DNA of 27,301 nucleotides. Origin: a virus. The stretch covers positions 1-27,301 of the IMG/VR virus record IMGVR_UViG_3300035670_001059, one strand, 5' to 3'. This document shows, piece after piece, positions 8,028 to 23,992 of this stretch. Positions within the stretch are counted from its first letter, which is position 1. Each line of letters starts with the position of its first letter. The position numbers were made by a program, and so were the translations under genes. Under the pieces are notes generated by a model that was not told the DNA's origin, searched no databases, and worked only from the letters and a program-made list of their open reading frames with translations.

Positions 8028-8059
8028 TCCCGGGGATAATAAAACGATTATCCCCGGGA
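8028..8059. repeat. Copy 1 of dispersed palindrome (13-bp arms, 6-nt spacer)
   Basis: TCCCGGGGATAAT, spacer AAAACG, then ATTATCCCCGGGA: a perfect inverted repeat in the gap between the major capsid and decoration genes, 18 nt before the latter's start codon. It is the only intact copy inside the late operon. No T-tract follows on either strand, so a simple terminator is unlikely. It could be an operator/promoter element or a mRNA hairpin just upstream of the ribosome site. Confidence 0.85.
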
Positions 8060-8075
8060 AGATAGTCCGATCGAC

Positions 8076-9050
8076 TTAGGCCTTCGCCACAGCCTGCAGA
8101 CGACGATTGGTGCAGATCATGTTGCCCATCCAGAGCACGGGGATAACCGTCGCGTCCTGGTTGTAGGGCTTCATGTCATCCTGAACTGACAGGTTCGCGT
8201 CTTTGTGGACGACGAGCTCCAGATAGTCAGTGTTCAGGAAATACATGTGCGCCGACGGGATGCCGCTGCCACCGTCGAAGATGACATCGGCGTTCTTGTA
8301 TTTCAGGCTGGTGAAACCGCCAGAGACATCATCCGCCGAGGTGTAGCGCTTGATGCTGACCTGGCTGGACTCGTAGAACGAGAACCAGTCGTTCGACGAG
8401 ATGATGACGTCCGGCTTGTCATCGCCACGGACCTGGTTCAACCACAGCGGGAGCATGATGCTGCCCTCGATGGTCGTTGCAGAGACCGTGACCGCGCCAC
8501 CACCCTGGAGCGGAGCCGCTGCCGACTGCACCGCGTTCTGCCAGAAGGGCCAGGCCGACGAGTCGATCCCGCCGATGGTCCCGGTGCCGGCATCAGCCAC
8601 GAGAGCCTGAAGCCCACCGATCTGGTTCGGAAGCGTCCCATCGGCGTAGAGGTCGTAGCTGAAGTTGTTCTTGAACGTCCGCATGGCGTTCTTGATCCGG
8701 GCCTTGGCAAGCTTGACGATCGCATTCCCGCCGGAGTTGGTGCGGAGTTCAAGCCCCGAAGCAACGACGTTGAGAGCGATCTGACGCCACTGATATTCCG
8801 CCGCGGTGATCACGTCGGACTGCTGGATGTTCAGAACATCGTAGCCGGAGTAGCGCTGATAGGTCCCGTTCGAGTTGTAGTCAAGCGGCTGGGCAATGGT
8901 CAGACCGCCGTCTTCGAGACGGATCTGACCCTTGGTTGCAATGCGGTTGTAAAGCGCATTATGGCGCGAGATGTTGTCCTTGACGTCCTTGGCGTGGTTC
9001 CGCCAGGTCGTTGCCACCAATTCGGTGAAGGTTGAGCTAGGAGTAGCCAT
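8076..9050 (-). CDS. Major capsid protein
   Basis: 324 residues from an ATG at 9050 (AAGGA about 9 nt upstream). The N-terminal helix region, with WRNHAKDVKDNISRHNAL followed by a Gly/Ile strand, is typical of HK97-fold major capsid proteins from podoviruses that use a separate scaffold. The rest is a mixed alpha/beta protein with a C-terminal strand-rich segment ending in MGNMICTNRRLQAVAKA. The order scaffold, capsid, then decoration supports the call. No N-terminal delta domain is apparent, consistent with the separate scaffold gene upstream. Confidence 0.9.
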   Translation of the reverse strand: MATPSSTFTELVATTWRNHAKDVKDNISRHNALYNRIATKGQIRLEDGGLTIAQPLDYNSNGTYQRYSGYDVLNIQQSDVITAAEYQWRQIALNVVASGLELRTNSGGNAIVKLAKARIKNAMRTFKNNFSYDLYADGTLPNQIGGLQALVADAGTGTIGGIDSSAWPFWQNAVQSAAAPLQGGGAVTVSATTIEGSIMLPLWLNQVRGDDKPDVIISSNDWFSFYESSQVSIKRYTSADDVSGGFTSLKYKNADVIFDGGSGIPSAHMYFLNTDYLELVVHKDANLSVQDDMKPYNQDATVIPVLWMGNMICTNRRLQAVAKA

Positions 9051-9065
9051 TGTTCAAATCCTTGA

Positions 9066-10121
9066 TTAAGCCCGAGAGGCAATCTGGGCCATGGTTTCAG
9101 CGAGAGTGTCGTCGATCGAGCCGACAGGAACCGTTCCGTTCCGTGACTTCGGATCAAGCGACAGATGGTCAGCCGTAGACCGGGCAAGCTTGTCTTTCCG
9201 AGCCTGCTCTTCGGCAGCAGCGGTTGTCGACTTGAGGGCTGTCAGCCGGTCGATTTCCTTCTGCCGAGTAGTCGGGTTCAGATAAATGGCCTTGTCGTAA
9301 GCGTCTTGGAGGTTGGTGGCCTGTCCGGCGTCAAAGAGCTTGATGATGTCTTCCACCAGCTCATTGAAATACGGATGGTCGGGACTCTGAGCCATCGACG
9401 AGATTTCGTTGTCGATGTGCTGCTGAGCAGCTCCCAGATCCTGCTGTTGGCGGGACTGGTGGGCGTTCTTGAGTTCGCTGATTTCCCGTTCGAGGGCAGC
9501 GACTCGGGGATCGACAGGTTCGAGGACCTTGTCGCCCATGTGGTTGATGAGCTGGCCGAAGTCGATTCCATAACCGCTAATCATATTCGCGGCGAGTTCG
9601 AGCTTCTGCTCAGGTGTTCCGCGGCTGAGGATGTAATGGTTCGCAGCGAAAGACTGGAACATCTGAACCGGGTCGATGTTCTCGGCTTGGAGGATCGGAG
9701 CGTAAGGGGTCACGACCTGGGAATAGCGATCCCCGATCTCAGCGCGTTCCTTGTATTGAGAAATCCCCCGGAAGTAATCCTCTTCACGTTTGAGGACTTC
9801 CTGCTGTGCTCGAGGGGTCAGTGTAGCCCATTCGGCGAGGGCTTCCTTGGACCAGGTCTTCGGTGCACCGGTGTCCTGCACCGCTTCGGTGTTCTCAGCC
9901 GCGGGCTCCTTGCCTTCCACAGCGGGTTGCTGGGGTGGATCAGCCGCAGCAGCGCTCGGATCGCTGGCCGCCAGGTCCACCCCAGCGTCAGCCCCCTTGA
10001 CCCCGGCATCGCCGCCTTCTCCCCCCTGCCGAAAGAGATCGGCGGAGATGTCAGCAAGAGCTGTTTCGGTGTCGAAGTCAGGCTGACTTTCGGTGGTGGG
10101 AGTTTCGATGTCTTTGGGCAT
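9066..10121 (-). CDS. Scaffolding protein
   Basis: 351 residues, ATG at 10121 with AAGGA upstream. The first ~90 residues are acidic and disordered, rich in Ala, Asp, Glu, Gly and Pro. The remainder is strongly helical and charged, with a likely coiled coil around residues 205-245 (ALEREISELKNAHQSRQQQ) and a Lys/Arg-rich C-terminal part. These are general properties of phage scaffolds, which bind the capsid protein through a basic helical C-terminus and leave the procapsid. It lies immediately before the major capsid gene, the canonical place. Confidence 0.85.
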   Translation of the reverse strand: MPKDIETPTTESQPDFDTETALADISADLFRQGGEGGDAGVKGADAGVDLAASDPSAAAADPPQQPAVEGKEPAAENTEAVQDTGAPKTWSKEALAEWATLTPRAQQEVLKREEDYFRGISQYKERAEIGDRYSQVVTPYAPILQAENIDPVQMFQSFAANHYILSRGTPEQKLELAANMISGYGIDFGQLINHMGDKVLEPVDPRVAALEREISELKNAHQSRQQQDLGAAQQHIDNEISSMAQSPDHPYFNELVEDIIKLFDAGQATNLQDAYDKAIYLNPTTRQKEIDRLTALKSTTAAAEEQARKDKLARSTADHLSLDPKSRNGTVPVGSIDDTLAETMAQIASRA

Positions 10122-10132
10122 GGGCAGGGTCC

Positions 10133-10558
10133 TTAGATGGGCGGCGTTGACCGGTCGACGGAAAGATCCAAGCCTCCATTGACCAGCTCGTTATGGAGCT
10201 GTTCCTTTTTGTCCGAGGAGAAGGCTTCGAACTCTCTTTCCACGTGGTCCTCGATTATCTTGTCGAGCTTGGCATCGTCTTGTGCCCGACGGGTAGCTGC
10301 GGCTTCGGTTTCACCCGTTTCCAGAACGCGACAGCCGTGTTTGGCCAGATTGTTCCGGTGGGCGTGCGCCGAGCCGATGTAATCCCCGGTGACTGGACAG
10401 GTGTAGTCTGTCTGATCCACCGAGAACATGGGGGCAGAAATGAGACGTTTTGCCGGAGCGGAGCAAGCGCAAATTTGAGGCTCTGAGAACTTTTCGAGAG
10501 GGACGAAACGTTCGAAGCGGTGGGAGGTGGCAGAGCACTGGAAGTCGTAGAGGGGCAT
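10133..10558 (-). CDS. FmdB-like zinc-ribbon protein
   Basis: The start is the ATG at 10558, which overlaps the portal stop (TGATG); a TTG one codon earlier is possible. The 141-residue protein opens with MPLYDFQC, then HRFERFVPLEKF, and QICACSAPAKRLISAP. This is the layout of the FmdB regulatory/zinc-ribbon family, with cysteines at 8, 30 and 32. The second CxxC pair typical of the family is altered (C8-x4-H13 and CAC), so metal binding may be weaker. The C-terminal half is charged and helical. Small FmdB-like proteins between portal and scaffold genes are common in this phage type, but their role is unknown. Confidence 0.82.
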   Translation of the reverse strand: MPLYDFQCSATSHRFERFVPLEKFSEPQICACSAPAKRLISAPMFSVDQTDYTCPVTGDYIGSAHAHRNNLAKHGCRVLETGETEAAATRRAQDDAKLDKIIEDHVEREFEAFSSDKKEQLHNELVNGGLDLSVDRSTPPI

Positions 10559-12663
10559 CAAGCAGGTTCCTTTTCAGCTTTTTCCGAGGCAGCGGATTGG
10601 GTGGCGATTTGTTCCAGCTTTTGCCTATGCTGAGCTTCCTGAATGCGGAGCTTTTGGTCCGCCGCCCGCATCTGGAGATTGAGCTCCCGCTCTCGGAGTT
10701 GAAGCTCCATTTGTGCGATCTGGGCTTCGAGCTCCATGAGCTTGACTTTTTGCTGAAACTCCATCTGGGACAGCTGCATATCGAGCTGAGTTTGTTGGGC
10801 CTTAGCCTGAGCTTCGATCTTTGCCGTCTCGGCCTTTATCTGCATTGCCGGATCAGGCCCGGCGGCTTGCGGAGCCTTCATGGCTTGGATTGCATCTTCC
10901 AAGTGCATGCCGAAGTTATACCGCCGGCTAATGGTCAGGAGCATTTCCTTGGCGATTTCGAAAGGCATGGTGCCGTCTTTGACCAGTGGCCCGAGACCGT
11001 TGAGGAACTGGGACAAGGCGTTGAGGAGCTCGGCGATGTCTTGCTTGTCTTGGGCAGCTTCTGCGTCGATCGTGGAGTTTGTCTCGATGTCAGTCTTGTA
11101 GTGGACGGCGACGGAATTCTGCATCAGGCCGTAGATCGCCTCCCACGAAGGCTGCTGCAGCATGTTGAGGATTTCCGGCGGGACTTCGGGGGCAGGAGGT
11201 GGGGCGGGAGGTTGCTGCTGCATCGGCGGGCCTCCCGGAGGGGCCTGCATCGGAGGCTGTTGCTGGGCCGCCATTTGCGCCTGCATCTGTTGCTGTTGCA
11301 GCCCCATTTGCACCTGCTGCTTCTCAGCCTCCGTCATATATGGCGCGCCGGTCATCTGCTTGAACGTGTCCATTTCAAACCGGTTGCAGGCAATTTCCAG
11401 CATGATGGCCAGAGCATCGCGGCAGTAGCGTTGGACTTCCTTCTGCATCCGCTTGAGCCGCAGAGACCCCCACTGGTTCTTGATGTTCTGAGCCGTGGCG
11501 GTTTCGGAAGCAACCGAGGCCCCGCGGAGAATGTCACTGATGCCAGTGATTTCGTAGATGACTTGCTTGATCCCCTCACGCTGTTGGTAGAGGGACTGAG
11601 CAGTGGCCGCAAGCTCTTGGATCGGCACCACCCACAGGAGCTTATCCATCCCGGTGCCGTCAGGCATAGACTGGACATTCTCGACCGGGACCATTTCGTT
11701 GTCTTCCGCGTTGAGCATCTTTTCAATGCCTTCGACAGCGGAGTTATACGCCCCCCGGAAGCGGATGGCTTTGATGATGGCTTTGAGCCGCAGGGTGATT
11801 GTGTTGAGCTCCTGGGCCTGCTGCTTGTAGTGCATGTAAAGTGGCGTTGGGACCAAGGTCGTGACCTTGCGCATGAAGTTCAGTGGCTTCGGGATCGGGA
11901 AGAAATTGAGCAACCCGAGAGGGTCTTCCGCCATGCGAAGCGGGCCTTTAGTATGACAGGCTGAGAAGAAATAGACCTTCCTTGTCCGCTTGTCCCAGAC
12001 CTCGTAGACCTTGGCGAGCTTGACACCTTTGAGCTGGTCCTTCGGCTCGGGCTCTTTCGAGTCGTCGGAAAGATCCATCATGTTGCGGAAATCGACAGCA
12101 ACATCGGGGAAATTGCTCCGGATTTCTGCTTCCGTCATGTCCCATTCGAAGCCGATCCAAGGGACCTTTTTCCAAGTCCGGGCATAGCCGTGGAAGAACT
12201 TGTCCCAGCGAACGGCTTCGCCATAGACGCATTCTGACATCGGGCCTTCCTGGCCAACGAACTTGAACCGGGTCAAGCCGCGGTTGGTGAGAAGCCCATC
12301 GAGGACAGCGGGCTGCATCAGATCGTCGAAGCCGTCGTAATTCGCGCTTTCCGTGTCGATAAGGTATTTCAACGACCGGGTGGAAACATCAGCCACGGCC
12401 TTGCCGAGGGGGTCAGAGTCCTTATACCGGCGCTGAACGACAGGGACTGGCCGGGCGTTGTAAACCGCTGGGGCCAGAACCTCGACATTCGAGTAGAGAA
12501 TCGCAAAGGGCGTGTCATCCGGGTTCTTGGCCTCGTAGAGGTCCACGCACATCTGCCCTGTCTGCCGGTATTTCTTCTCGCGTTCAAGGGCGTTTTGGAT
12601 TTCCGACATCCAAGATTTATAGAGCCCTTCGAGCTTTTTCTCGGAGATCTGAGCCTCAGCCAT
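10558..12663 (-). CDS. Portal protein
   Basis: 701 residues, ATG at 12663 with AAGGAA about 9 nt upstream, overlapping the terminase gene by 8 nt. The N-terminal region (helical, with EREKKYRQTGQMCVDLYE) and a central region with PVPVVQRRYKDSDPLGKA resemble podovirus portals. A Pro/Gln/Met-rich stretch lies at about residues 455-500, and the last ~90 residues form a long Gln/Glu-rich coiled coil, which fits the helical barrel at the portal's top. The protein forms the dodecameric DNA gate at one capsid vertex and is the docking partner of the terminase. Size and neighbours (terminase upstream, scaffold downstream) agree. Confidence 0.92.
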   Translation of the reverse strand: MAEAQISEKKLEGLYKSWMSEIQNALEREKKYRQTGQMCVDLYEAKNPDDTPFAILYSNVEVLAPAVYNARPVPVVQRRYKDSDPLGKAVADVSTRSLKYLIDTESANYDGFDDLMQPAVLDGLLTNRGLTRFKFVGQEGPMSECVYGEAVRWDKFFHGYARTWKKVPWIGFEWDMTEAEIRSNFPDVAVDFRNMMDLSDDSKEPEPKDQLKGVKLAKVYEVWDKRTRKVYFFSACHTKGPLRMAEDPLGLLNFFPIPKPLNFMRKVTTLVPTPLYMHYKQQAQELNTITLRLKAIIKAIRFRGAYNSAVEGIEKMLNAEDNEMVPVENVQSMPDGTGMDKLLWVVPIQELAATAQSLYQQREGIKQVIYEITGISDILRGASVASETATAQNIKNQWGSLRLKRMQKEVQRYCRDALAIMLEIACNRFEMDTFKQMTGAPYMTEAEKQQVQMGLQQQQMQAQMAAQQQPPMQAPPGGPPMQQQPPAPPPAPEVPPEILNMLQQPSWEAIYGLMQNSVAVHYKTDIETNSTIDAEAAQDKQDIAELLNALSQFLNGLGPLVKDGTMPFEIAKEMLLTISRRYNFGMHLEDAIQAMKAPQAAGPDPAMQIKAETAKIEAQAKAQQTQLDMQLSQMEFQQKVKLMELEAQIAQMELQLRERELNLQMRAADQKLRIQEAQHRQKLEQIATQSAASEKAEKEPA

Positions 12664-14158
12664 AGAGAAGTTCCTTTTGAATGCGTTCGCGGCGGTTTCT
12701 GTCCACGAGTTGGTTGAAAGTCATCTGCCCGGGGAGTTGCGGAAGCTGCAAGCCGATGGGCGGTTGAATGAGCTTAGGTTTCCATGGCCGCGACATGCAA
12801 GCATAACGGACTTCATCTGCCACGTGGTCCTCGCCGTCAGTGTCGAGGTCTTCGGGGTTCTTTTCGTCGTGCTGAAGTGTCGGCATTGTGCGCCAGAAGT
12901 CTTCGCACTCGTGAGCAGCGTAGAGCATCGGGACGTTGACGATGGTTTCCTGACCCTCAATCTCTTTGACTACTTGCTCCCCGACGATCCTTTGCCGGAC
13001 AGCTTCCCAGCCAGGTAGTCGCTTATTGTCCGCGCGCCGCCACCGACACTGAGCCATAGACTCAGCAATAGAAGGCCCCCCGTTGCGAATAAAGATAGCA
13101 GGATCAGCAACTGCGAAACGAATCCGGTCACCGGCTTCAAATTCGAGGATTTGTTTGGCGACAAGGTCGGCGGTTGAGCCAAGGCCTTTGTTGATGCCTG
13201 AGGCGCCATACCACTCGCGGTAGCGGAAGATGGCTCCGAATGGGAGCGGGTTGTCTTTGGGCCAGGTGCCGTCGCAGATCGCCCACCAGCCGACTGAGAA
13301 AGGCTTCGCAGAACCCCAGTCAAAGGAACGGAAGCAGATAGTTGAAGGCGGGGCCCATCGGAGGAGGTCTGCAGGCCGACCGTGTAGCTGCTCGTCGAGC
13401 TCGGTGAAGTAAGCTCCGTCGACGATGTCCCAGTTTCCTTCGAGCCAGGCTTTGACGAGAGCTTCGGAGCCAGACTGACGGAGACGCAAGACGTAAGTAG
13501 GATCATTCCGGAGAAGGAGCATATTATCGCCGAGCTTCGACGGAATGAAAACACGCTCGAGCTCGACAGTCTGGGTGACGCCGTCAATTTCAACATCGCA
13601 GGACTCCTTGACGATTTTGTAACCAGCTGGATCTGGGTCGATATAACGCTTTTTTACCCAGTTGTGTCCGGGGCCCCCAGGATTGCCAGTAAGCCGCATA
13701 GCAACAGGCACGCCAGCGCCACTTCTGAGCGTCGCACGGAGCTTGTCGATAGGCCCGGGGGAAGGGAAGTTCGTGACTTCCTCGACGTAGACGCGGGTGT
13801 AGTTGTGGCCTTGGTATTCTTCGGCATCGGAATCTCTTTCAAGGTAGACGAACTTAAGCCGAGCGCCACCGGGCATGAGCCATTCGGCTTTCTGCTCGTT
13901 GTATTTGGCCCCGATCTTGGGGAAGAGTTGCTTGGTCCGAGCGATGACCTCAGCGAGCTGTTTGAATTTCCGTCGGACGAAGATGCCGACGGCGTTTTCA
14001 CCGTAAGTGGCAGCGTGCTGGAGCCAGTCGCCGATTGAGGATTCAGTCTTGCCCCCGCCACGAGCTCCGCCGTAGAAGACTTCGAAAACCGGACACTGGA
14101 GAAGGGCGGTTTGAGGGCCTTCTTGGGGTGACCAGATGACGGTTTGGGGCTGGGACAT
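12656..14158 (-). CDS. terL: Terminase large subunit (packaging ATPase/nuclease)
   Basis: 500 residues, ATG at 14158. Walker A is GGARGGGKT at residues 30-38. Walker B is VYVEE at about 123-127, followed by the motif III region LTGNPGGPGHNW at about 156-167. The C-terminal RNase H-like nuclease contributes acidic residues at D280 (in SFDWGSAKPFS), D352 (VADPAIF) and D448 (HVADEVRY). The protein pumps DNA into the procapsid through the portal and cuts concatemers. Full length for the family, with all expected motifs, so probably functional. The ribosome site is weak, which fits coupling to the preceding small gene (3-nt gap). Confidence 0.96.
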   Translation of the reverse strand: MSQPQTVIWSPQEGPQTALLQCPVFEVFYGGARGGGKTESSIGDWLQHAATYGENAVGIFVRRKFKQLAEVIARTKQLFPKIGAKYNEQKAEWLMPGGARLKFVYLERDSDAEEYQGHNYTRVYVEEVTNFPSPGPIDKLRATLRSGAGVPVAMRLTGNPGGPGHNWVKKRYIDPDPAGYKIVKESCDVEIDGVTQTVELERVFIPSKLGDNMLLLRNDPTYVLRLRQSGSEALVKAWLEGNWDIVDGAYFTELDEQLHGRPADLLRWAPPSTICFRSFDWGSAKPFSVGWWAICDGTWPKDNPLPFGAIFRYREWYGASGINKGLGSTADLVAKQILEFEAGDRIRFAVADPAIFIRNGGPSIAESMAQCRWRRADNKRLPGWEAVRQRIVGEQVVKEIEGQETIVNVPMLYAAHECEDFWRTMPTLQHDEKNPEDLDTDGEDHVADEVRYACMSRPWKPKLIQPPIGLQLPQLPGQMTFNQLVDRNRRERIQKELLYG

Positions 14159-14161
14159 GGG

Positions 14162-15122: not shown

Positions 15123-15152
15123 CCCGGGGATTATCATCTCCAAATTCCCGGG
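15123..15152. repeat. Degenerate copy of dispersed palindrome, upstream of late promoter
   Basis: Two CCCGGG cores (15123-15128 and 15147-15152) are separated by exactly the 24-bp repeat distance of the intact copies. The inner parts are altered: GATTAT instead of GATAAT and CAAATT instead of ATTATC. A second ATTATC follows at 15155-15159 in an overlapping AATTCCCGGGAATT palindrome. The element sits about 35-65 bp upstream of the late -35 box, where an activator or repressor could act. Confidence 0.55.
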
Positions 15153-16232: not shown

Positions 16233-16772
16233 TTACAGCCCAAGCTCACCGAGCAGTGCCGCGCTATCGACAGCCTTGGCCGCCGTTGCGCCACGTTCCG
16301 ACTTCATGCGCTCGATGATCGCCGCGATTTCGGGAACGTTGCGAAGGGCCAATTGTCCGGCCCGGTCCTTTGCATCATAGACCGCACGAAGCTCGGCTTC
16401 GGTAATGGTCTTTTTCGCGGCGGTTGCCTTGGCCGTGGCCCATTCGGCAAATGCCCGGAAAATGATCCCGGCGACAGGCCCGGCACCTTCACCTGCCCGC
16501 TTGGACCAGTCACCTTCGAGCAATCGCGTTGCCACGGATTGCATGGCTTCGAGCTTGGTCTTCGCGGCGTCGGTCGGATCAACCGGCAGGTCAGCCTTGG
16601 CAATCGCGGCGGCGTCGGAGATTTTTTGCACAATGCCATGCACCATTGCACGAGCGCGGACATCTTCCGAGAGAGCCGAGAGGCTAACCACAAATTCCCC
16701 GGCATTGGCCACGGTGAAGGTCAGCTCGCCATTGTCATTGCTAACCGAGATGATCGAATTTTTCTTTGCCAT
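16233..16772 (-). CDS. Phage hypothetical protein with C-terminal LLGELGL motif (paralogue of 19113-19709)
   Basis: 179 residues, ATG at 16772 with AAGGAA about 8 nt upstream. A beta-strand-like N-terminus (ISVSNDNGELTFTV) is followed by a helical body. Clear similarity to the 198-aa plus-strand protein: MVHGIVQKISDA against AAHGVEQKLGDA, RLLEGDWSKRAG against RLEAGEWNITRAA, and LALRNVPEIAAIIERM against LALRRSDKLRPIIERL. Both then run through a Lys/Ala linker to a VDxxALLGELGL end. Here the motif is the extreme C-terminus. No catalytic motif is visible. I recognise this as a widespread phage protein of unknown function. It heads its own two-gene operon on the minus strand. Confidence 0.85.
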   Translation of the reverse strand: MAKKNSIISVSNDNGELTFTVANAGEFVVSLSALSEDVRARAMVHGIVQKISDAAAIAKADLPVDPTDAAKTKLEAMQSVATRLLEGDWSKRAGEGAGPVAGIIFRAFAEWATAKATAAKKTITEAELRAVYDAKDRAGQLALRNVPEIAAIIERMKSERGATAAKAVDSAALLGELGL

Positions 16773-17145
16773 GTTACTATTCCTTTTCAGGTCGTCCTAT
16801 CGGGGACCATTCCCCGGGGACAATCCCCCCCTCTATAGCCATCTGGCCGATTGTCGCATGAAAAAAATTTACCGGTCTGTCGGATAGCCCAGCCTCTATC
16901 CCCGCTCCTCTCTATCGGCCCGCCGATGTCCTCGCCCAGGCTCTCTCCCCCCGGTCAAATCGGCTATCCACTTGCCCCGTTTTCTCGCTTCTACCCTCAT
17001 ATCTGATTTGAAGTAGCCAAAACTCAGCGGACAATATCCCCGGGGATAATGACTTGATTATCCCCGGGGAAGTCCCTTTAGAAAAGACTTGCTGTAATTC
17101 CCGGGTATTAGGCATAGTGCTCTTAGTAACAACTGGAGATTTACT
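16773..17145. other. Divergent intergenic regulatory region
   Basis: 373 bp between the minus-strand 179-aa gene and the plus-strand HNH gene, with no gene seen. It holds a small GGGGA/TCCCC hairpin and a palindrome half-site (CCCGGGGACAAT, 16813-16824), a complete palindrome copy at 17037-17070 and another CCCGGG half-site with flanking TAAT and ATTA at 17096-17110. A weak promoter candidate on the plus strand is TTGCTG (17089), 18 nt, CATAGT (17113). The density of half-sites suggests the transcription control point for both operons. Confidence 0.5.
17037..17070. repeat. Copy 2 of dispersed palindrome (14-bp arms, 6-nt spacer)
   Basis: TCCCCGGGGATAAT, spacer GACTTG, then ATTATCCCCGGGGA: the longest perfect copy. 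It lies 75 bp upstream of the HNH gene in the divergent region, and GACAAT just to its left resembles a further half-site. Confidence 0.88.
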
Positions 17146-17514
17146 ATGACACTTCCAATGCCTTTTCCAGATGAATACAGCAATAAGCGTTTCTGGCAAA
17201 AAGTTAATATCCAAGGTCCCGAAGATTGTTGGGAATGGCTTAGCAGCTTTAGTGGAGGTTACGGTATTATGATCGTGGCTGGTAGAAGGCTAAGAGCCTC
17301 AAGAATAGTTCTTTTTGGGGCTCTTGGGCAAAATGAGCTATTAGCCCTCCATCGTTGTGACAACCCTGCCTGCGTGAACCCAAATCACCTATTCGCTGGA
17401 ACGCATAAGGAGAACTCTCAAGATATGGCTGTTAAGGGCCGGGCCAGGAAATCCGAAAAATATTACAACACTTTGGACACAACTGCTATGTTTCAAGAGC
17501 TGGAAATTTTCTAA
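17146..17514 (+). CDS. HNH endonuclease (free-standing, likely homing type)
   Basis: 122 residues, ATG at 17146 with GGAG about 8 nt upstream. [16 protein letters not shown] at the N-terminus and [19 protein letters not shown] at about residues 68-86 define the HNH_3-like fold: H69 with C71 and C76, then N78/H81, and a downstream THKENSQDM segment. It lacks an AP2 domain, unlike the other two HNH proteins in the window. Codon use is more A+T-rich than in the genes around it, a sign of independent acquisition. It stands alone between the regulatory region and the early promoter. No interrupted gene was seen nearby. Confidence 0.92.
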
Positions 17515-17659: not shown

Positions 17660-17700
17660 TCCCTCGGGGCAATCAAGCCCTCTTTGCAAAGGAACTACCA

Positions 17701-17928: not shown

Positions 17929-17935
17929 TCGCATC

Positions 17936-17972
17936 TGACCCGGGGGAAGGACGGCTCTCCCGGGTCACTTTT
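17936..17972 (+). terminator. Partial intrinsic terminator after first early gene
   Basis: TGACCCGGG (17936-17944) pairs with CCCGGGTCA (17959-17967), extended by three further pairs including a wobble, and is followed by CTTTTC. The short T-tract suggests incomplete termination, allowing read-through to the next gene. Confidence 0.65.
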
Positions 17973-17989
17973 CAAGGGGAGGTACTTTA

Positions 17990-18190
17990 ATGACCATCCA
18001 ACGCTCTTACGGCGAGGTTGAGTTCCACTGCGATGGAACCGGCTGCCACGAAGTCTTCGAAACCGAGACAAGGGATTGGGAAACTGCCCTAGAGCTCTAT
18101 CGGGCCTCTGACTGGACAACCCGGCGGGTGGGTGAGGACTTTCTCCACATCTGCCCCGACTGCCTCCAAGCCGAAGCTCCGATCCTATGA
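17990..18190 (+). CDS. Small zinc-ribbon-like hypothetical protein (66 aa)
   Basis: 66 residues, ATG at 17990 with a strong GGAGG 8 nt upstream. Cysteines at 14, 19, 55 and 58 (HCDGTGCHEVF and HICPDC) form a two-knuckle pattern likely to bind zinc. The linker is helical and carries DWETALELYRASDW. The stop overlaps the next start (ATGA). Function unknown; one of several small Cys-pair proteins in this arm. Confidence 0.82.
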   Translation: MTIQRSYGEVEFHCDGTGCHEVFETETRDWETALELYRASDWTTRRVGEDFLHICPDCLQAEAPIL

Positions 18191-18639
18191 CCGGCAGGAC
18201 CGAGCGCGTCTCCCGCGAACATCGGATTTACCTTGCCGTCTGGCGCAAGGCCTTCACTGATCAGCCGAAGATCATCAAGCTCAAGGCCTCGAGCTTCTCC
18301 GCTGCTCTTGTCATGCGGACAGGGCTTTATCGCGCTATCCGACCCTACCGCTTCGGTGAGCTCCATGATGAGGAGCTGTTCCAAGCCGCTGAGGGCTTCG
18401 TCGTCTCGGTGGTTAAGCTCAAGAACCCCAAGGCCCAGCACGAGGTCGTTCTCAAGCCCCGAGCGACGCTGACTGAACTCGAAGCCGAGCTCGAAGCTCT
18501 CGGGATCACAGAAGCCGATCTAGCCCTGCCGGAAGAGATCGAACTCCACGGAAAGCTGGTGGAACTCCTGCCCACCAGCACGAACCAAACAACCAAGCAA
18601 CCAATCGGGAATAAATTCTACAACCGCCAGGAGGACTAG
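18187..18639 (+). CDS. Hypothetical protein (150 aa)
   Basis: 150 residues starting at the ATG of an ATGA overlap with the upstream gene. The N-terminal ~75 residues are basic (RTERVSREHRIYLAVWRKA, then KIIKLKASSFSAALVM) and may bind nucleic acid. The region around 92-110 (TLTELEAELEALGITEADL) is a leucine-rich helical segment. The C-terminus is polar and likely disordered. No family was recognised. Confidence 0.8.
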   Translation: MTGRTERVSREHRIYLAVWRKAFTDQPKIIKLKASSFSAALVMRTGLYRAIRPYRFGELHDEELFQAAEGFVVSVVKLKNPKAQHEVVLKPRATLTELEAELEALGITEADLALPEEIELHGKLVELLPTSTNQTTKQPIGNKFYNRQED

Positions 18640-18641
18640 CC

Positions 18642-18992
18642 ATGACTTGGACGAACCAAGACTTTCGAGCCTATCCGGCTAAGTGCTTCTCTCTCCATCG
18701 AGAAGCCGCGATCAAGCCCCATGTCCCGATCAACCTCGGGGCTTGGAAGTCCCAAGCTGCCGCGGATACCGAAGTCCTACTCTTCCGTAAATTCCGCTTC
18801 CTCGTCCGATCAAACCCGGGGGTTGATCTTTCCCTAGACAAGCTCTTCTCCGAAAACAACTTCCGAACCCGGAGATTCGTCAATGCCCTTGGGGATTGGT
18901 CTGTCACCCTAACTGCCCGACCGAACTTTGACACCGAGCTTCTCAGGCTTAATCCCGACCTAGCCCGGTTGCTCCCCGAGGGGTGTCAATAG
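18642..18992 (+). CDS. Hypothetical protein (116 aa)
   Basis: 116 residues, ATG at 18642 with AGGAGG about 7 nt upstream, which overlaps the end of the preceding gene. It is basic with several aromatic residues (FLVRSNPGVDLSLDKLF, then NALGDWSVTLTARPNF) and no cysteine motif or membrane span. It is followed by 120 bp with a promoter candidate. Function unknown. Confidence 0.78.
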   Translation: MTWTNQDFRAYPAKCFSLHREAAIKPHVPINLGAWKSQAAADTEVLLFRKFRFLVRSNPGVDLSLDKLFSENNFRTRRFVNALGDWSVTLTARPNFDTELLRLNPDLARLLPEGCQ

Positions 18993-19023
18993 AAAAAATT
19001 TCCGCCTCAGACCACGATGCCTA

Positions 19024-19052
19024 TTGACCCGGGCCACCGTCCTAATCCATAT
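19024..19052 (+). promoter_or_regulatory. Putative promoter for the 198-aa gene
   Basis: TTGACC (19024-19029), 17 nt, CCATAT (19047-19052), 60 bp before the ATG at 19113. The spacing is ideal; the -10 box is only partly consensus. It lies in the 120-bp gap after the previous gene and would give the 198-aa gene independent expression. Confidence 0.4.
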
Positions 19053-19112
19053 CTGTCCGTGGCAACCGGGAAACACTCTTCCCACCAATCCCTGCCACGA
19101 AAGGAATTTCCA

Positions 19113-19709
19113 ATGACCGAAGTCTCCACTGCCCCCAAGACCGAAAAGATCCCTGTCACCATGACTGACGGCCGGGTGGTCGAATTCAACAAGAAGCAGA
19201 AGCTCGTCAAGACCTCGACCTTCGACAATGGCGTTGTCACCACCCGCCTGGACTTCGTCAACGGTGAAACCCGGGATTTCACTGTCCCCGAGAGCCTCGT
19301 CCTCCGCTTCGCCGCTCATGGCGTCGAGCAGAAGCTCGGCGATGCGATCGCGGGTGAAAGCGACATGGGCGATGCCGTCCTCTCGGTCGATGACCTGATC
19401 AAGCGCCTCGAAGCCGGCGAATGGAACATCACCCGTGCGGCTGGTGGTTTTGCCGGAACCTCGATCCTGATCCAGGCGCTGGTCGAAGCCTCGGGCAAGC
19501 CGGTGGAAGACATCAAGGGCTTCCTGGCCAACAAGACCCAGGCCGAGAAGCTGGCCCTCCGCCGTTCGGACAAGCTCCGTCCGATCATCGAGCGGCTGGA
19601 AGCAGCCAAGGCCTCGAAGTCGAAGTCGACTGTCGACACCGGCGCGCTGCTCGGCGAACTCGGTCTGGGCGATGCCCCGGCCAAGGGCAAGAAGGACGCC
19701 GAAGGCTAA
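19113..19709 (+). CDS. Phage hypothetical protein with LLGELGL motif (paralogue of 16233-16772)
   Basis: 198 residues from the ATG at 19113, chosen for its AAGGAA site about 7 nt upstream; an in-frame ATG at 19017 has no such site and would add a Pro/His-rich leader. The N-terminal domain has beta-strand-like segments (EKIPVTMTDGRVVEF). The helical body aligns with the 179-aa minus-strand protein (AAHGVEQKLGDA, RLEAGEWNITRAA, LALRRSDKLRPIIERL). It ends with STVDTGALLGELGL plus a further 15-residue Lys/Ala/Gly tail. Function unknown. It is followed by a strong terminator, implying substantial expression. Confidence 0.87.
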   Translation: MTEVSTAPKTEKIPVTMTDGRVVEFNKKQKLVKTSTFDNGVVTTRLDFVNGETRDFTVPESLVLRFAAHGVEQKLGDAIAGESDMGDAVLSVDDLIKRLEAGEWNITRAAGGFAGTSILIQALVEASGKPVEDIKGFLANKTQAEKLALRRSDKLRPIIERLEAAKASKSKSTVDTGALLGELGLGDAPAKGKKDAEG

Positions 19710-19756
19710 CCCTTTCCCTCCCCCAGCGGGCAACTCCCCTCCCGCCCGCTGAAACG

Positions 19757-19794
19757 ATCCCCCAGCAGCGCCATGCTGCTGGGGGATTTTCTTT
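19757..19794 (+). terminator. Strong intrinsic terminator closing the early operon
   Basis: A perfect 13-bp stem (19757-19769 with 19775-19787; core CCCCCAGCAGC / GCTGCTGGGGG), a 5-nt loop, and then TTTCTTT. It lies 47 bp after the 198-aa gene. Confidence 0.92.
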
Positions 19795-19816
19795 GGCCGT
19801 TCGCTGTGGACGGGAA

Positions 19817-19845
19817 TTGACAATTCCCGGGGATAATGGTTTTAT
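19817..19845 (+). promoter_or_regulatory. Promoter overlapped by palindrome copy 3
   Basis: TTGACA (19817-19822, consensus), 17 nt, TTTTAT (19840-19845). The spacer and -10 box lie within the palindrome 19826-19855, so a protein bound there would block RNA polymerase. It comes directly after the strong terminator and 38 bp before the next start codon. Confidence 0.5.
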
Positions 19846-19855
19846 TATCCCCGGC
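19826..19855. repeat. Copy 3 of dispersed palindrome
   Basis: CCCGGGGATAAT, spacer GGTTTT, then ATTATCCCCGGC: 11 of 12 pairs, with only the outermost pair broken. It lies 27 bp before the ATG at 19883. Confidence 0.85.
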
Positions 19856-19882
19856 GATTATGCCAAGTGGAGGGAACCACTG

Positions 19883-20155
19883 ATGAAAAAGCAACTAACC
19901 AAGCTCCCCGTCCGACCGATCAGGGAGATAACTAAGGACATCGAAGCCGATATTGCCGCAGGGAATTGGTCCCGCTCGGCCTCGGCTTACGCCCGGCCGT
20001 ATCTCAGAGCTATGAAAGAGCTCGGCTCGGTCTCCGACAAGTATCTTCTCGATTCCGGTCGCAGCGTCGTGCTGTATTTCCTCTCTAACGCCAGCACCTG
20101 GCGCGGGGATGTCGCCAGAAAGATCAAGAACGAACTGCGGAGTATCTTGGCATGA
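19883..20155 (+). CDS. Small basic hypothetical protein (90 aa)
   Basis: 90 residues from the ATG at 19883 with GGAGGG about 9 nt upstream; the frame is open further upstream through the terminator, but those starts are not credible. The protein is basic and helical (MKKQLTKLPVRPIREITKD, then ARPYLRAMKELGSVSDKY), with no cysteine motif or membrane span. First gene of the second plus-strand operon, behind a palindrome-covered promoter. Its stop overlaps the next start (ATGA). Function unknown. Confidence 0.8.
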   Translation: MKKQLTKLPVRPIREITKDIEADIAAGNWSRSASAYARPYLRAMKELGSVSDKYLLDSGRSVVLYFLSNASTWRGDVARKIKNELRSILA

Positions 20156-20463
20156 ACCTCAAGGACTTCAACCTCGATGGGACAGAAGCAACCAAGCTCC
20201 TCGAAATCGACAGCCTAGTCCACTACGGACTTCCCCGCGATCGGGCTGAGAAGCTCGTCGGTCAGCTCTATGACCTTATCGACGGACCTTGGCAGGACAT
20301 CCTCACGCCGCTGGCAGACAGTGTGCAGGACGATGACGTGGCACTGCTCTCTACGTTCTTTGTCTCGTTTGTTTATTCCTGGGCTCAGGATCGGGCTCTC
20401 GTGGCTTCTCTAGTCCAGAACCGGATACTCGACAAGGTTCGCAGGGAGAACGGTCATGGATGA
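20152..20463 (+). CDS. Hypothetical protein (103 aa)
   Basis: 103 residues starting in an ATGA overlap. Acidic and helical in the first two thirds (DGTEATKLLEIDSLVHYGL, then LVGQLYDLIDGPWQDIL). A hydrophobic segment at about 67-83 (LSTFFVSFVYSWAQDRA) is too polar for a confident membrane span. The end overlaps the next gene by 8 nt. No family was recognised. Confidence 0.8.
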   Translation: MNLKDFNLDGTEATKLLEIDSLVHYGLPRDRAEKLVGQLYDLIDGPWQDILTPLADSVQDDDVALLSTFFVSFVYSWAQDRALVASLVQNRILDKVRRENGHG

Positions 20464-20968
20464 TTTCTTCGCCGAGCTCGAAGCCGAAATTGCCAAGTCT
20501 GTCAAATCCGATCAGCTGAAAAAGGATCGCGATGCCCTGAGAAAGCGCGCGAACACCATGACGCTGTCGGCTGAGACAAGAGCCCGAGCGGCTGAGGAAT
20601 ACCGCCAGATCAACGCGGTGCTTGCAGCTCAGGAATATCAAGCCATCAAGACAGTGGCGCTGTTCACTGAACAAACCTGCGACGGTTGTGGCTCAGTCCA
20701 TCGGATCTTTCTCCAATACATGGAGCTGCAGCAGCTGGTCCGCCGACCCTCGACCCAGCAATGGGTTCGGGTTACTGCCCCGAAGCCCGAAGCTGTCCTC
20801 CCCCGGGAGACACTTCTCCAGCCCATGACCACACATCTATGCGCGAACTGCTGTGAGGATCACGGGTTCGCGCTGCTGACGGCAAATAGGCTGCCGTCGA
20901 GAAAGGACACGCTTGTCCCGTCGTTTACTTATGAGCAAGCGGATATCAACGCAGCAGAAGCTGCCTAA
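20456..20968 (+). CDS. Hypothetical zinc-ribbon protein with N-terminal coiled coil (170 aa)
   Basis: 170 residues, ATG at 20456 with GGGAGA upstream. Residues 1-60 are a charged helix with coiled-coil character (FFAELEAEIAKSVKSDQLKK). Cys pairs at 75/78 (TCDGCGSVHRIF) and 129/132 (LCANCCEDH) form a probable zinc ribbon. The arrangement suggests an oligomeric adaptor or a nucleic-acid-binding protein. Overlapping starts and stops tie it to the same transcript as its neighbours. No named family was recognised. Confidence 0.83.
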   Translation: MDDFFAELEAEIAKSVKSDQLKKDRDALRKRANTMTLSAETRARAAEEYRQINAVLAAQEYQAIKTVALFTEQTCDGCGSVHRIFLQYMELQQLVRRPSTQQWVRVTAPKPEAVLPRETLLQPMTTHLCANCCEDHGFALLTANRLPSRKDTLVPSFTYEQADINAAEAA

Positions 20969-20983
20969 CCGAGGATCATCCCA

Positions 20984-21169
20984 ATGGCTAGAACTGCCAA
21001 AATCGACCGGCCCAGGCCGACAGAAATCCAGCTCCCAGCTTCGATCCGGGCCAAGATCGACTCGGAGCTTTATTCAGAAATCGAAGGCCGGGTGCCGCAT
21101 GGTGCCCTGTCCGAGCTCTTTGTGGGTCTGGCGGCGGATTGGCTTAAGGCTCGGGGGGTTGTCGTATGA
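20984..21169 (+). CDS. Small ribbon-helix-helix-like protein (61 aa)
   Basis: 61 residues, ATG at 20984, preceded by GAGGAT about 8 nt upstream. A basic N-terminus is followed by a short strand (TEIQLPASIR) and two helices (AKIDSELYSEIEGRV, then GALSELFVGLAADWL), the layout of small MetJ/Arc-type ribbon-helix-helix DNA-binding proteins. It could be a regulator, for example of the palindromes in this genome, but no direct evidence links them. The stop overlaps the next ATG. Confidence 0.75.
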   Translation: MARTAKIDRPRPTEIQLPASIRAKIDSELYSEIEGRVPHGALSELFVGLAADWLKARGVVV

Positions 21170-21432
21170 GCAAGCCGGACTTCATCGTCCAGCCCCAGCG
21201 TTCCGACGGTCGAGGCTTCGTCCCTTGTGAGCTTCACCGGGCGACCAACTTCGCCGTCATCCGGGTTGAGAACTTCACCCGAAAGGGCCGGCGTTTCACA
21301 GCTTCTCGGACTATTGCACGCTTCGCGACGAAGAGCCAAGCCGAGGGGCTGGCTGAGAGCAACCGGAAGCTCCATACCCCAACAGCGAAGCATTTAATTA
21401 GGAAGCTTGGGCAGAGGATTGTAAAACCATGA
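21166..21432 (+). CDS. Small basic hypothetical protein (88 aa)
   Basis: 88 residues starting in an ATGA overlap with the previous gene. It is strongly basic, with strand-like segments (NFAVIRVENFTRKGRRFTA) and a helical Lys/Arg-rich C-terminus (KHLIRKLGQRIVKP). A nucleic-acid-binding role would fit the charge. No family was recognised. Its stop overlaps the next start. Confidence 0.78.
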   Translation: MSKPDFIVQPQRSDGRGFVPCELHRATNFAVIRVENFTRKGRRFTASRTIARFATKSQAEGLAESNRKLHTPTAKHLIRKLGQRIVKP

Positions 21433-21779
21433 CCGACCTGGCACAACAGATCAAAGCACTGGCTGAGAAGGCGACGGTTGAGGCTGGGGAGGTGTGGACC
21501 GAAGCTTATGAAGCCGCGATGCTCGATAAATACGCAATACACATGCAATCGTCGAAGGCCGCAACCGCCATAATCTCCGCCGCTATCACCGCAGCAGAAC
21601 AGCGCGGGGCGGAGAGGGAGCGGGGGAAGGTGGTGGCTTGGATCAAAGCCGAAAACGAGCTTTGTGACTGCTACGCCCACAGCGCAGGTGAATGTGCCTG
21701 TGGGGCTTGGTATGGCAACAAAAGTTGGCCGTTTGATCGCTTCGCCGACGCAATCGAAACAGGAGCGCATGATGTTTGA
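21429..21779 (+). CDS. Hypothetical protein (116 aa)
   Basis: 116 residues beginning in an ATGA overlap. The first ~85 residues are Ala/Glu-rich and helical; a Cys-rich segment near residues 79-92 (LCDCYAHSAGECACGAWYG) could bind a metal. The gene ends inside the ribosome site region of the next gene, overlapping it by 8 nt. Function unknown. Confidence 0.78.
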   Translation: MTDLAQQIKALAEKATVEAGEVWTEAYEAAMLDKYAIHMQSSKAATAIISAAITAAEQRGAERERGKVVAWIKAENELCDCYAHSAGECACGAWYGNKSWPFDRFADAIETGAHDV

Positions 21780-22104
21780 GACAGTTAGCCTTAAGGCTTG
21801 CCGGAAATGCGGCTGCGACAAAGCTGACACCGATATGCGGCGCAAATACTGGTTCGCTGAGTGCTTGCACTGCGGCTATCACACCGAAGCGGCGGATACC
21901 GAAGCCCAAGCAATCACCGCATGGAACGCTCGCGCATCCGAAGCACATACTCTGCGTGTGGCTGAGGCTGTGAGGGCAGCTTGTGCAGCGGTTGCCTATA
22001 CCGAATGTGCCAAGACCCGCCATGTGACTTTGGGTGAAAAAGCAGAACAAGCCATCCGCGCCCTCGATATTGGGCGGATTATTGAGGAGGTGGGGCGTGA
22101 CTAA
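21772..22104 (+). CDS. Lar-like (restriction alleviation family) zinc-ribbon protein
   Basis: 110 residues from the ATG at 21772, chosen over the adjacent ATG at 21769 because AGGAG then has a 6-nt spacer. SLKACRKCGC (C10, C13), AECLHCGYHT (C31, C34) and the EAQAITAWNARA segment at about 44-55 match the compact Lar-type zinc ribbon, in which a W-N-x-R motif follows the second knuckle. In Rac prophage, Lar modulates host type I restriction, but most phage homologues are untested, so the activity is uncertain. A C-terminal helical extension of ~55 residues is extra. Confidence 0.75.
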   Translation: MFETVSLKACRKCGCDKADTDMRRKYWFAECLHCGYHTEAADTEAQAITAWNARASEAHTLRVAEAVRAACAAVAYTECAKTRHVTLGEKAEQAIRALDIGRIIEEVGRD

Positions 22105-22267
22105 CCTGATCGAACAAGCGAAGGCGATGGCTGAGAGGCTGGAGAATTTCAGCGCGGGGCCTGCCGCCAGATTAACTGGCGTTTCAATCGGCACGGAAAC
22201 TTTCAGCTTTGTCGAATACGCCGCCCTTATCCGCCAACTCATTGCACAAATTGAAAGGACCTCTTAA
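22097..22267 (+). CDS. Small hypothetical protein (56 aa, GTG start)
   Basis: The GTG at 22097 has GAGGAGG 6 nt upstream, a strong site, and overlaps the previous stop; the earlier in-frame ATG at 22034 has none. The 56-residue protein is helical at both ends (TNLIEQAKAMAERLENF, then EYAALIRQLIAQIERTS) with a Gly/Thr-rich centre. Function unknown. Confidence 0.72.
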   Translation: MTNLIEQAKAMAERLENFSAGPAARLTGVSIGTETFSFVEYAALIRQLIAQIERTS

Positions 22268-22269
22268 CC

Positions 22270-22467
22270 ATGTGTCATCTCGTCTCTTGGCTCGAACCCC
22301 CAGCCAAAACCTCCGCCGGGCTTAACCTCCCACAGATGAAGGTCTTCCCCGACATCGAAGAGGCCAAGCCCTTTGCCGAAATCCTTCTCCTCTCCGGCTG
22401 CACGGAAGTGCAAGTCTGGAAGCGGGTTCTCAATCCGACTGTCATTCAAAGCGTGAAATGGAATTAA
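22270..22467 (+). CDS. Small hypothetical protein (65 aa)
   Basis: 65 residues, ATG at 22270, two bases after the previous stop, with AAAGGA about 10 nt upstream. Short strand/helix segments (LPQMKVFPDIEEAKPFAEIL) and no cysteine pair motif. It precedes the helicase gene by 39 bp, a gap holding a 5-bp hairpin (TGGGC/GCCCA at 22472-22486) and the helicase ribosome site. Function unknown. Confidence 0.72.
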   Translation: MCHLVSWLEPPAKTSAGLNLPQMKVFPDIEEAKPFAEILLLSGCTEVQVWKRVLNPTVIQSVKWN

Positions 22468-22506
22468 CCCTTGGGCGATAAGCCCACCAATCCGAAAGGA
22501 AGTTAA

Positions 22507-23928
22507 ATGCGTGAACTTAAAAACGACGGCGATCAAGACTACGTAGATTGCCCGAAGTGTGCTGCTGGCCGTATCTACTCTCTCGAATGTGATTGCTGCG
22601 GTTACACCGAACCCCCACCGGAAGAGGAAGCCCCTCCCGAGATGACACCTACCCCCGAGCAATCCCTTGCCCTCTCGGAGATGCTCTCCTTCCTCGACGA
22701 CTTCACCGTCTCCCCAGCTACTCCCTTCTTCTGCCTCTCAGGCTATGCCGGCACCGGCAAGTCCTACTCCATCACCCTCTTGGCAAAGAGTAAACTCGAT
22801 GATGACAGCCCCAGGTTCAAACCCTCCGAAATCTGCTTCACCGCTCCGACCAACAAAGCCGTTAAAGTTCTGCGGAACTACCTCGATGATGCCGGCTTGT
22901 CTTCTTCCCCATCGAAGACGATTTATTCCCTGCTCGGGTTGTCCCTTCAAGCAAGCGGAGAGGTCAAAACCCTGACCAAGCCTGAGGAACCTGTCGATCT
23001 TTCTGGGTTTAAGGTCATCGTCGTGGACGAGGCTTCAATGGTCAATCGCTTCCTCATGGATGCTATCCGCGAGGCGTCTGCCGATTGGAACGTCCCGTTC
23101 ATCTTCATGGGTGACCCAGCGCAGCTACCGCCTGTCGGGGAAATAACCTCCCCTGTCTGGAAGGTCGCCCGCGGGGCTCAGCTCGTGACTGTCATGCGTT
23201 ATGGCAACTCCATGCTCGACCTGGCCACGGCCATCCGCAACGTCGTGGATCATCCAGCCCCGTCGGTCAAAATCGAAACCAAGGCCCCGGTTTATCGCTG
23301 GGGGAAAGCCGACTGGCTCAATCAGATCGAAGCCAATCTCGAGCTCTTCAAGTCCGGCGACGCCAAGGCCATTGCTTGGCGGAACGTGACTGTCGATGGG
23401 CATAATGCCTATATCCGCAAGCTCATTTTCGGCCCGATCGCCAAGACCTCGGCCTGGCTTCCCGACGATCAAATCGTTGCCAGAGCTCCGCTTAAGGACC
23501 TCGAAGGCTTTACCTTCATGCAGAACGCTGAAGAAGCCCGTGTCCTCGAAGTCGTCATTGGCAACCACCCTCGGCACAGTGAGTTCGAAATCTTCAACCT
23601 CCTGGTCGAACATGAAACCGGCCGGAAGTTCACGATCCGAACCCTCACCCAAACCGGGAGCTTCCATCTCAGCAACCGGCTCAACGAGCTGTCCATGGAA
23701 GCCAAGAACGGAAAGAAGTGGAAATGGCGGGAGTTCTGGGAGCTGAAGGAAGCGTTCCATGAGGTTCGGCATTCCTATGCTTGGACCAGCCACATGTCCC
23801 AGGGATCATCGGTGAAAAAGGTTTTCGTCGATCTCGAAGACATCATGCTGAACCGTAACCGGGGTGAGGCGTTCCGCTCTCTCTATGTCGCGTGCACCCG
23901 GCAACGCGAGGAATTGCACGTTGCCTAG
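22507..23928 (+). CDS. Dda/RecD-like SF1 helicase with N-terminal zinc ribbon
   Basis: 473 residues, ATG at 22507 with AAGGAAG upstream. Residues 1-33 carry a zinc ribbon (CPKC at 15-18 and CDCC at 28-31), unusual for this helicase family. The helicase motifs follow: Walker A GYAGTGKS at 79-86, motif Ia TAPTNKA at 112-118, Walker B VVDEAS at 172-177, motif III GDPAQLPPV at 202-210, a motif V region around 425-445 (SHMSQGSSVKKVFVD) and motif VI YVACTRQREEL at 460-470. The order and the 5'-to-3' SF1B signature fit Dda-type helicases, which act in phage replication initiation and recombination. All motifs are intact. Followed by a promoter/palindrome gap. Confidence 0.95.
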   Translation: MRELKNDGDQDYVDCPKCAAGRIYSLECDCCGYTEPPPEEEAPPEMTPTPEQSLALSEMLSFLDDFTVSPATPFFCLSGYAGTGKSYSITLLAKSKLDDDSPRFKPSEICFTAPTNKAVKVLRNYLDDAGLSSSPSKTIYSLLGLSLQASGEVKTLTKPEEPVDLSGFKVIVVDEASMVNRFLMDAIREASADWNVPFIFMGDPAQLPPVGEITSPVWKVARGAQLVTVMRYGNSMLDLATAIRNVVDHPAPSVKIETKAPVYRWGKADWLNQIEANLELFKSGDAKAIAWRNVTVDGHNAYIRKLIFGPIAKTSAWLPDDQIVARAPLKDLEGFTFMQNAEEARVLEVVIGNHPRHSEFEIFNLLVEHETGRKFTIRTLTQTGSFHLSNRLNELSMEAKNGKKWKWREFWELKEAFHEVRHSYAWTSHMSQGSSVKKVFVDLEDIMLNRNRGEAFRSLYVACTRQREELHVA

Positions 23929-23946
23929 GGCAGCGAGCGTTGCCAA

Positions 23947-23974
23947 TTGACCCGGCCATCTCCCCGGGGATAAT
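23947..23974 (+). promoter_or_regulatory. Promoter whose -10 box lies in palindrome copy 4
   Basis: TTGACC (23947-23952), 16 nt, GATAAT (23969-23974). The -10 box is the inner part of the left arm of the palindrome 23963-23992, so the start site would fall near its centre or right arm. This is the best evidence that the repeat is an operator. It drives the cassette from 24025. Confidence 0.6.
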
Positions 23975-23992
23975 ATCCGCATTATCCCCGGG
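23963..23992. repeat. Copy 4 of dispersed palindrome
   Basis: CCCGGGGATAAT, spacer ATCCGC, then ATTATCCCCGGG: a perfect 12-bp inverted repeat with the same 6-nt spacer as the other copies, 32 bp before the TTG start at 24025. Confidence 0.9.

Follow-up and report, generated by a model that had tools for sequence, protein, structure and literature searches.

The palindromic elements dispersed over virus record IMGVR_UViG_3300035670_001059 of IMG/VR, whose 27.3 kb (27,301 nucleotides) were analyzed in full and are referred to here as the window, are probably double operators for a small phage-encoded protein of the ribbon-helix-helix (RHH) kind, for which a candidate gene lies at positions 20984-21169 on the plus strand of the same record. 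Each element consists of two inverted 12-nt arms around a 6-nt spacer. Related phages keep this geometry while the sequence of the arms differs from phage to phage, and the spelling tracks the residues of the RHH-like protein that are predicted to touch DNA, so that the sites are most likely control switches read by this protein.

The window phage is podovirus-like, with terminase, portal, major capsid protein (MCP) and tail genes running leftwards and with f7, f17, Dda-like helicase, PD-(D/E)XK and AAA genes running rightwards. Genes were called with simple conservation-based rules, and some starts may therefore be off. The pattern CCCGGGGATAAT-N6-ATTATCCCCGGG occurs four times, with 0 mismatches in three copies and 1 mismatch in the copy at 19826-19855; the chance expectation is zero, as no copy was found in 100 dinucleotide shuffles of the window. 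An earlier inspection of the letters alone (the sequence-only reading) had described near-perfect arms around a 6-nt spacer that differs in every copy, and had placed all copies between genes and three of them just ahead of start codons. Both descriptions were borne out, since all four copies lie outside conserved genes and the gap from site end to start codon is 19 bp for the gene starting at 8009 (minus strand), 27 bp for that at 19883 (plus strand) and 32 bp for that at 24025 (plus strand). The four copies listed in that reading stand, and a fifth, more degenerate one had been missed.

Site 1 (8029-8058, CCCGGGGATAAT-AAAACG-ATTATCCCCGGG) lies between the MCP gene and the next late gene, which is the conserved post-MCP slot of the relatives described below. 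Site 2 (15123-15152, CCCGGGGATTAT-CATCTC-CAAATTCCCGGG) is the degenerate copy; it has the same 30-bp geometry as the other four with a poorer right arm, and is located 88 bp upstream of a TerS-like gene in a slot kept in most relatives. Site 3 (17039-17068, 0 mismatches) falls where transcription diverges, with the f7a gene (16233-16772, minus strand) on one side and, on the other, an HNH endonuclease-like gene identified with Pfam (17146-17514, plus strand), the next conserved gene, which starts 77 bp away. Site 4 (19826-19855, one mismatch) overlaps a forward sigma70-like promoter for the operon in which the regulator-candidate gene lies, and site 5 (23963-23992, 0 mismatches), between the Dda-like helicase gene and f18, overlaps another forward sigma70-like promoter.

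A search of IMG/VR for the exact 30-mer of the window returned no match elsewhere, and the motif was therefore discovered afresh in each relative. IMG/VR supplied eighty TerL relatives; 29 records were examined over all or almost all of their length, and the final site set comprised about 190 sites in 30 related phages. The 12-6-12 geometry recurs across these 30 relatives, with a spelling private to each phage (CCCGGG, CGACCG, CGCCGG, TGCGCG and others) and with 4-13 phage-specific copies per near-complete genome. Examples include thirteen CGACCG..TAC sites in G018, eleven CGCCGG..TAA sites in G023, eight TGCGCG..TAA sites in G020 and eight CGcCgG..TAC sites in MW202489.1 (Manatee Spring), the nearest annotated relative of the window phage (TerL identity of 65%). 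Genome G019, which at first seemed to carry no sites, has at least seven of type CGCACACAAAAT; in the more distant relative Pseudanabaena phage Pam5, a comparable site set was not found. Motif discovery initially fixed the spacer at 6, and other spacings were checked later by seeking half-sites singly, which gave 185 facing pairs with a 6-bp spacer and at most two at any other spacing.

The positions of the sites are also shared. An inverted repeat of the same shape and another sequence directly follows the MCP stop codon in 29 of 31 phages, and further recurring slots were found upstream of TerS, between f7 and f17, Dda and f18, portal and f6, PDDEXK and f27, and f31 and a collagen-like gene, as well as directly after the primase stop codon, where operons converge. 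A start codon preceded by a Shine-Dalgarno sequence lies within 50 bp of 56% of co-directional sites, compared with 17% of random coding positions. The palindromes of the relatives are thus neither scattered at random nor missing from the junctions seen in the window; the shared junctions and the strong intergenic bias support the proposal of the sequence-only reading that they are dimeric protein-binding sites forming a phage-wide operator set. Ten phages carry a site inside the DNA polymerase gene, approximately 600 nt from the gene start, and Pfam coordinates place this intragenic site in MW202489.1 in the linker of the uracil-DNA glycosylase (UDG) and exonuclease domains. The gene itself (22210-24588, minus strand, in L005, with equivalents in nine other relatives) encodes a family A DNA polymerase fused to an N-terminal UDG domain, and in L005 the site lies in the linker between the two enzyme parts.

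The element is a DNA site rather than an RNA hairpin. Arm pairing within a site was compared with that of arms re-dealt among sites of the same phage, and amounted to 73.1% observed vs 74.6% re-dealt, with G-U making up 16% vs 19% of mispairs. The two arms therefore pair only as well as would be expected if each were drawn independently from a single half-site, and each half follows the half-site consensus of its own phage. The selected RNA hairpin that had been offered as an alternative thus found no support. By information content per position, the conserved stretch starts 5 bp beyond the 30-mer and runs inwards as far as its inner edge, and each half is a pseudo-dyad centred between positions 3 and 4. 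Because of these conserved flanks and pseudo-dyad halves, the full element is best described as two dyads, approximately AATCC-N4-GGATT, 24 bp apart and inverted. The sequence-only reading had the geometry right, and had overlooked both the roughly 5 bp of conserved flank at each end and the pseudo-palindromic character of the arms.

The proposed reader is a 61-aa RHH-like protein whose family is present in every near-complete relative, with about 61 residues and the pattern MPRPKKxDRPxxxxxxLPESLxxxVxLELYSELEGKVPxGAxSxL... The structure model (pLDDT of 87.6) has an extended segment followed by helices at residues 19-29 and 39-56; as a monomer, it does not make strand pairing visible. The predicted strand-helix-helix order and the short chain agree with those of RHH proteins. 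The predicted strand comprises residues 11-17 (RPTEIQL), with residues 12 and 14 as the putative specificity residues. A Foldseek search of the model against BFVD gave one good match (E of 7.5e-4). In RHH proteins, alternate strand residues read the major groove, as residues 18, 20 and 22 of AmrZ do when contacting DNA (PMC3325190). Since this mode of reading is known, it yields a prediction, which was tested by comparing strand distances with distances of the outer hexamer of the half-site between phages, with structural genes controlled.

The strand covaried with the outer hexamer with a partial r of 0.49 (p=0.0002, the floor of the test) once structural genes, replication genes and the remainder of the RHH-like protein had been controlled for; that remainder itself gave r=-0.09. 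Sliding windows over the protein showed a peak at the strand and values mostly near zero elsewhere, with a minor rise near residues 38-41. Amongst 6159 windows from all core families, an RHH strand window ranked first for the hexamer (r=0.53 vs a best value of 0.50 elsewhere). Compared as a whole in Mantel tests, the RHH-like protein did not stand out; its strand alone did. Taken singly, residues 12 and 14 gave the highest values of all (0.44 each, followed by 0.29), and they are linked to hexamer columns 1-6. These outward residues outrank 11, 13, 15 and 17, an alternation that fits RHH strand reading as in AmrZ. At residue 14, for example, E accompanies CCG at positions 2-4 in seven phages and R accompanies GGCAT in two; K is found with CGnCCG, CGCCGG or CGGCCG in five, and T or V with CCGCGG in three. 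Judged by covariation only, alternate strand residues 12 and 14 would determine the DNA specificity of the protein.

An independent set was assembled by scanning IMG/VR with the RHH-like alignment alone, which provided loci of further phages of up to 75 kb. Spacer-6 sites were discovered de novo in most of the loci long enough to judge, with spacers of 5 and 7 mostly far lower. Most of these loci lacked a detectable MCP or TerL of this phage family in the fetched stretch, yet carried sites. Both a new RHH protein and a motif called with confidence were available in 26 of the new loci, and there the outward-facing residues of the strand again covaried with the hexamer (r=0.40, p=0.0003, controlled for the rest of the RHH-like protein). 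When a second phage protein served as the query, a single contig was retrieved, which the set already contained.

Evidence from promoters suggests what the sites may do. In the early slots, the site overlaps a sigma70-like promoter pointing into the next gene (mean score of 7.42 forward, 5.29 reverse and 5.39 in shuffled flanks, p=8e-5), and one such promoter in G024 is a perfect consensus, TTGACA-17-TATAAT. In the window, promoter-like sequences on the plus strand were found at 19817-19845 (TTGACA at 19817-19822, 17 bp, TTTTAT at 19840-19845) and at 23947-23974 (TTGACC at 23947-23952, 16 bp, GATAAT at 23969-23974), with the second hexamers lying within sites 4 and 5, respectively. An intrinsic-terminator-like hairpin with a 15-bp stem and a T-rich tail (19756-19788, plus strand) closes the upstream operon just before site 4. 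As site 4 follows this hairpin and opens the operon with the RHH-like gene, autoregulation is likely. No sigma70-like promoter was seen in the late slots or at the convergent post-primase junction. The 25 phages searched have no match to a tyrosine integrase (PF00589) or an HTH_3 repressor, whereas controls matched; serine integrases were not searched. A role in immunity is therefore not evident, and the phages are apparently lytic.

On this basis, each half of about 17 bp, an AATCC-N4-GGATT-type pseudo-dyad centred on the outer hexamer, would seat one dimer of the RHH-like protein, and two dimers placed 24 bp apart and inverted, possibly as a tetramer, would give the fixed 12-6-12 geometry and leave the 6-bp centre unread. 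If strand residues 12 and 14 read the hexamer, the spelling of the site would shift phage by phage and the geometry would stay. Because the early sites overlap host-type promoters, binding should shut these off, including that of the regulator's own operon; the simplest interpretation is that early promoters are repressed. Dimers bound at late junctions, or at the convergent junction after primase, would more probably serve as an insulator or a symmetric roadblock. A broader picture, which we put forward tentatively as possible rather than probable, is that of a genome-wide RHH regulator of apparently lytic phages that keeps its operator geometry frozen while changes at two strand residues recast the spelling in almost every lineage, giving a natural series of regulator-operator pairs that are probably mutually orthogonal. 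Such a regulator would combine early-promoter shut-off with symmetric blocks to elongation, or with insulation, at the late and the convergent junctions.

Several observations weigh against the assignment of the sites to the RHH-like protein, or against parts of it. Pfam RHH_1 matched with a best E of 0.034 in one of 26 members, the NikR match had an E of 0.17, a profile comparison with five RHH proteins gave a single pair (E of 0.015, probability of 3%), and Foldseek found no fold match for the model in the PDB. When the full 17-bp half-site is considered, two methyltransferase windows equal or surpass the RHH-like protein. The whole DNA polymerase and f7a retain r of approximately 0.4, the polymerase coding sequence being the one that holds a site in ten phages. 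A stricter test, in which the hexamer was predicted from the nearest neighbour in 18 new phages, was suggestive only (p=0.067), perhaps because residues 12 and 14 act together. The permutations take related phages as exchangeable, so that relatedness is not fully removed, and covariation is no proof of contact. Finally, as the late sites lack promoters, repression of initiation cannot explain all sites.

Other explanations were also considered. The sites could be activator sites through which the RHH-like protein turns on middle or late genes from promoters without a -35 box. The late sites indeed have no recognizable sigma70 promoter and yet lie 16-37 bp upstream of late genes, and the RHH proteins AmrZ and NikR can activate (PMC3325190). 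The gap between site and start codon, however, is hardly long enough for a downstream promoter, a conserved -10 element at a fixed place outside the site was not seen, and activation does not suit sites that lie within the DNA polymerase gene or where genes converge, all of which make this account unlikely. The elements could also be real operators with another reader, e.g., the f7 family (16233-16772 and 19017-19709) or the methyltransferase with a ParB domain, the RHH-like protein then being a descent-linked bystander. In its favor, f7a has a partial r of 0.37 with the hexamer and some methyltransferase windows reach r=0.5-0.6. We nonetheless regard another reader as quite improbable, given that the RHH-like signal is confined to the strand and gone in the rest of the same protein with identical descent, that the whole methyltransferase falls to r=-0.01 under the same control and that loci fetched by the RHH-like protein alone carry sites.

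If the inverted repeats worked at the mRNA level, whether as terminators, as RNase processing sites or as translational operators ahead of the ribosome-binding site, this might account for the perfect 12-bp stems with 6-nt loops in the window, for the many sites 10-40 bp ahead of a start codon and for a palindromy that persists despite sequence drift. This explanation is very doubtful in view of the pairing test and its lack of G-U enrichment, and a T-tract was not found at the sites, none of which is among the terminator-like hits. It is also at odds with sites inside the DNA polymerase gene and between convergent genes, and with a hexamer that covaries with the strand residues of a protein. 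Core sites of tyrosine-type recombinases, including dif-like modules, have a similar arm-centre-arm geometry (arm 12, centre 6, arm 12) with an unconserved centre. The SPbeta repressor MrpR, moreover, is a recombinase-fold protein acting on dispersed sites (PMC10516654). A recombination function is nevertheless scarcely credible, because no Phage_integrase match was obtained in the 25 phages while all 14 control genomes were positive, and because the sites occupy the same junctions in relatives and covary with the RHH-like strand. A promoter for a phage RNA polymerase was rejected as a candidate; PF00940 gave no match in a search that had no positive control, and no large core family was found beyond structural genes and the DNA polymerase.

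The proposed double operators of the RHH-like protein resemble several known systems in part. The ESAS elements of cluster K mycobacteriophages (PMC3203893) are dispersed 17-bp imperfect inverted repeats upstream of start codons, kept next to the same genes, with a subcluster-specific consensus and no assigned reader. Their spacers vary, however (4-13 bp in most sites), and they adjoin a 13-bp SAS, whereas in the phages studied here the spacer is fixed at 6, sites also occupy late and convergent junctions and a candidate reader can be named. A 13-mer of the SAS kind did not stand out among the window repeats and was not sought in the relatives. The 17-bp dyad repeats of the cluster O mycobacteriophages (the Corndog group; PMC4351075) are likewise many symmetric genome-wide sites in phages not known to be temperate, for which a dimeric regulator is suspected. 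They consist of a single dyad with a 3-bp centre in 34 copies, with one sequence across five phages and no assigned binder, in contrast to the two dyads at a fixed 24-bp spacing and the phage-specific spelling seen here.

Cluster A stoperators (L5; PMC9283540) follow a similar logic, in which a single phage regulator has operators at promoters and additional sites in the short gaps between genes, and their specificity diversifies along with the repressor. They are 13-bp, asymmetric, transcription-oriented sites of a monomeric HTH immunity repressor in temperate phages, unlike the symmetric sites of 30-40 bp with an RHH-like candidate reader described here; the term stoperator used in the sequence-only reading therefore holds as an analogy only. 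The SPBRE element of SPbeta (PMC10516654) was similarly a repeated intergenic element later shown to be bound at promoters by the phage master repressor MrpR; it is a 15-bp motif with a recombinase-fold repressor in a temperate phage. Arc and Mnt of P22, CopG and AmrZ (PMC3325190) are short strand-helix-helix proteins that place alternate strand residues in the major groove and bind as dimers of dimers, at few operators per genome. The protein proposed here has a longer inter-helix loop and a similarity to them below significance, and its dimers would be 24 bp apart. Features of dispersed operator sets seen here are multiple above-chance copies mostly at junctions, with promoter overlap in early slots only. 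Since the asymmetry and temperate immunity of stoperators and the variable spacer of ESAS are absent, we classify the elements as a variant form of dispersed phage operator. Its novelty lies in a double-dyad geometry that stays frozen while the spelling differs by phage, and in a candidate reader whose code can be seen.

Dispersed dyad repeats of clusters K and O have been known for more than 10 years with no binding protein assigned, and the comparison of dozens of uncultured phages now names one protein and two residues, which makes the question directly testable. If the assignment is true, these phages would offer dozens of natural small regulators with matched operators of the same geometry, usable as orthogonal switches, together with a worked recognition code for a strand-reading DNA-binding protein. 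It would also mean that regulatory specificity diversifies in phages that show no evident lysogeny and for which the usual reason, immunity, cannot hold.

Several neighboring genes and minor features were also recorded. The two f7 paralogues (16233-16772, minus strand, and 19017-19709, plus strand) and the 68-aa f18 (24025-24231, plus strand) have a common C-terminal tail, LLGELGL, which is kept as LLxELxx in most relatives and may dock a common partner. Neither Pfam nor PHROG gave a confident match for the f7 family, one member of which retains some covariation with the hexamer. Family f12 (24906-26297, minus strand, in L005), kept in 27 compared phages, is an N6_N4_Mtase DNA methyltransferase with an N-terminal ParB-like domain, some windows of which covary with the full half-site. 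An MCP search of GTDB gave only three metagenome-assembled genome (MAG) contigs from different phyla, probably phage contigs binned by chance, and one MAG contig with a related MCP carries a CCTGGGGCCC-type short repeat array at one end (L147, 1-520). A 59-aa frame at 39992-40171 of L005, annotated as class D beta-lactamase OXA-58, is far too short and likely misannotated. Within the window, the genes at 3412-3894 and 26328-26987 appear by eye to be AP2/HNH homing endonuclease-like.

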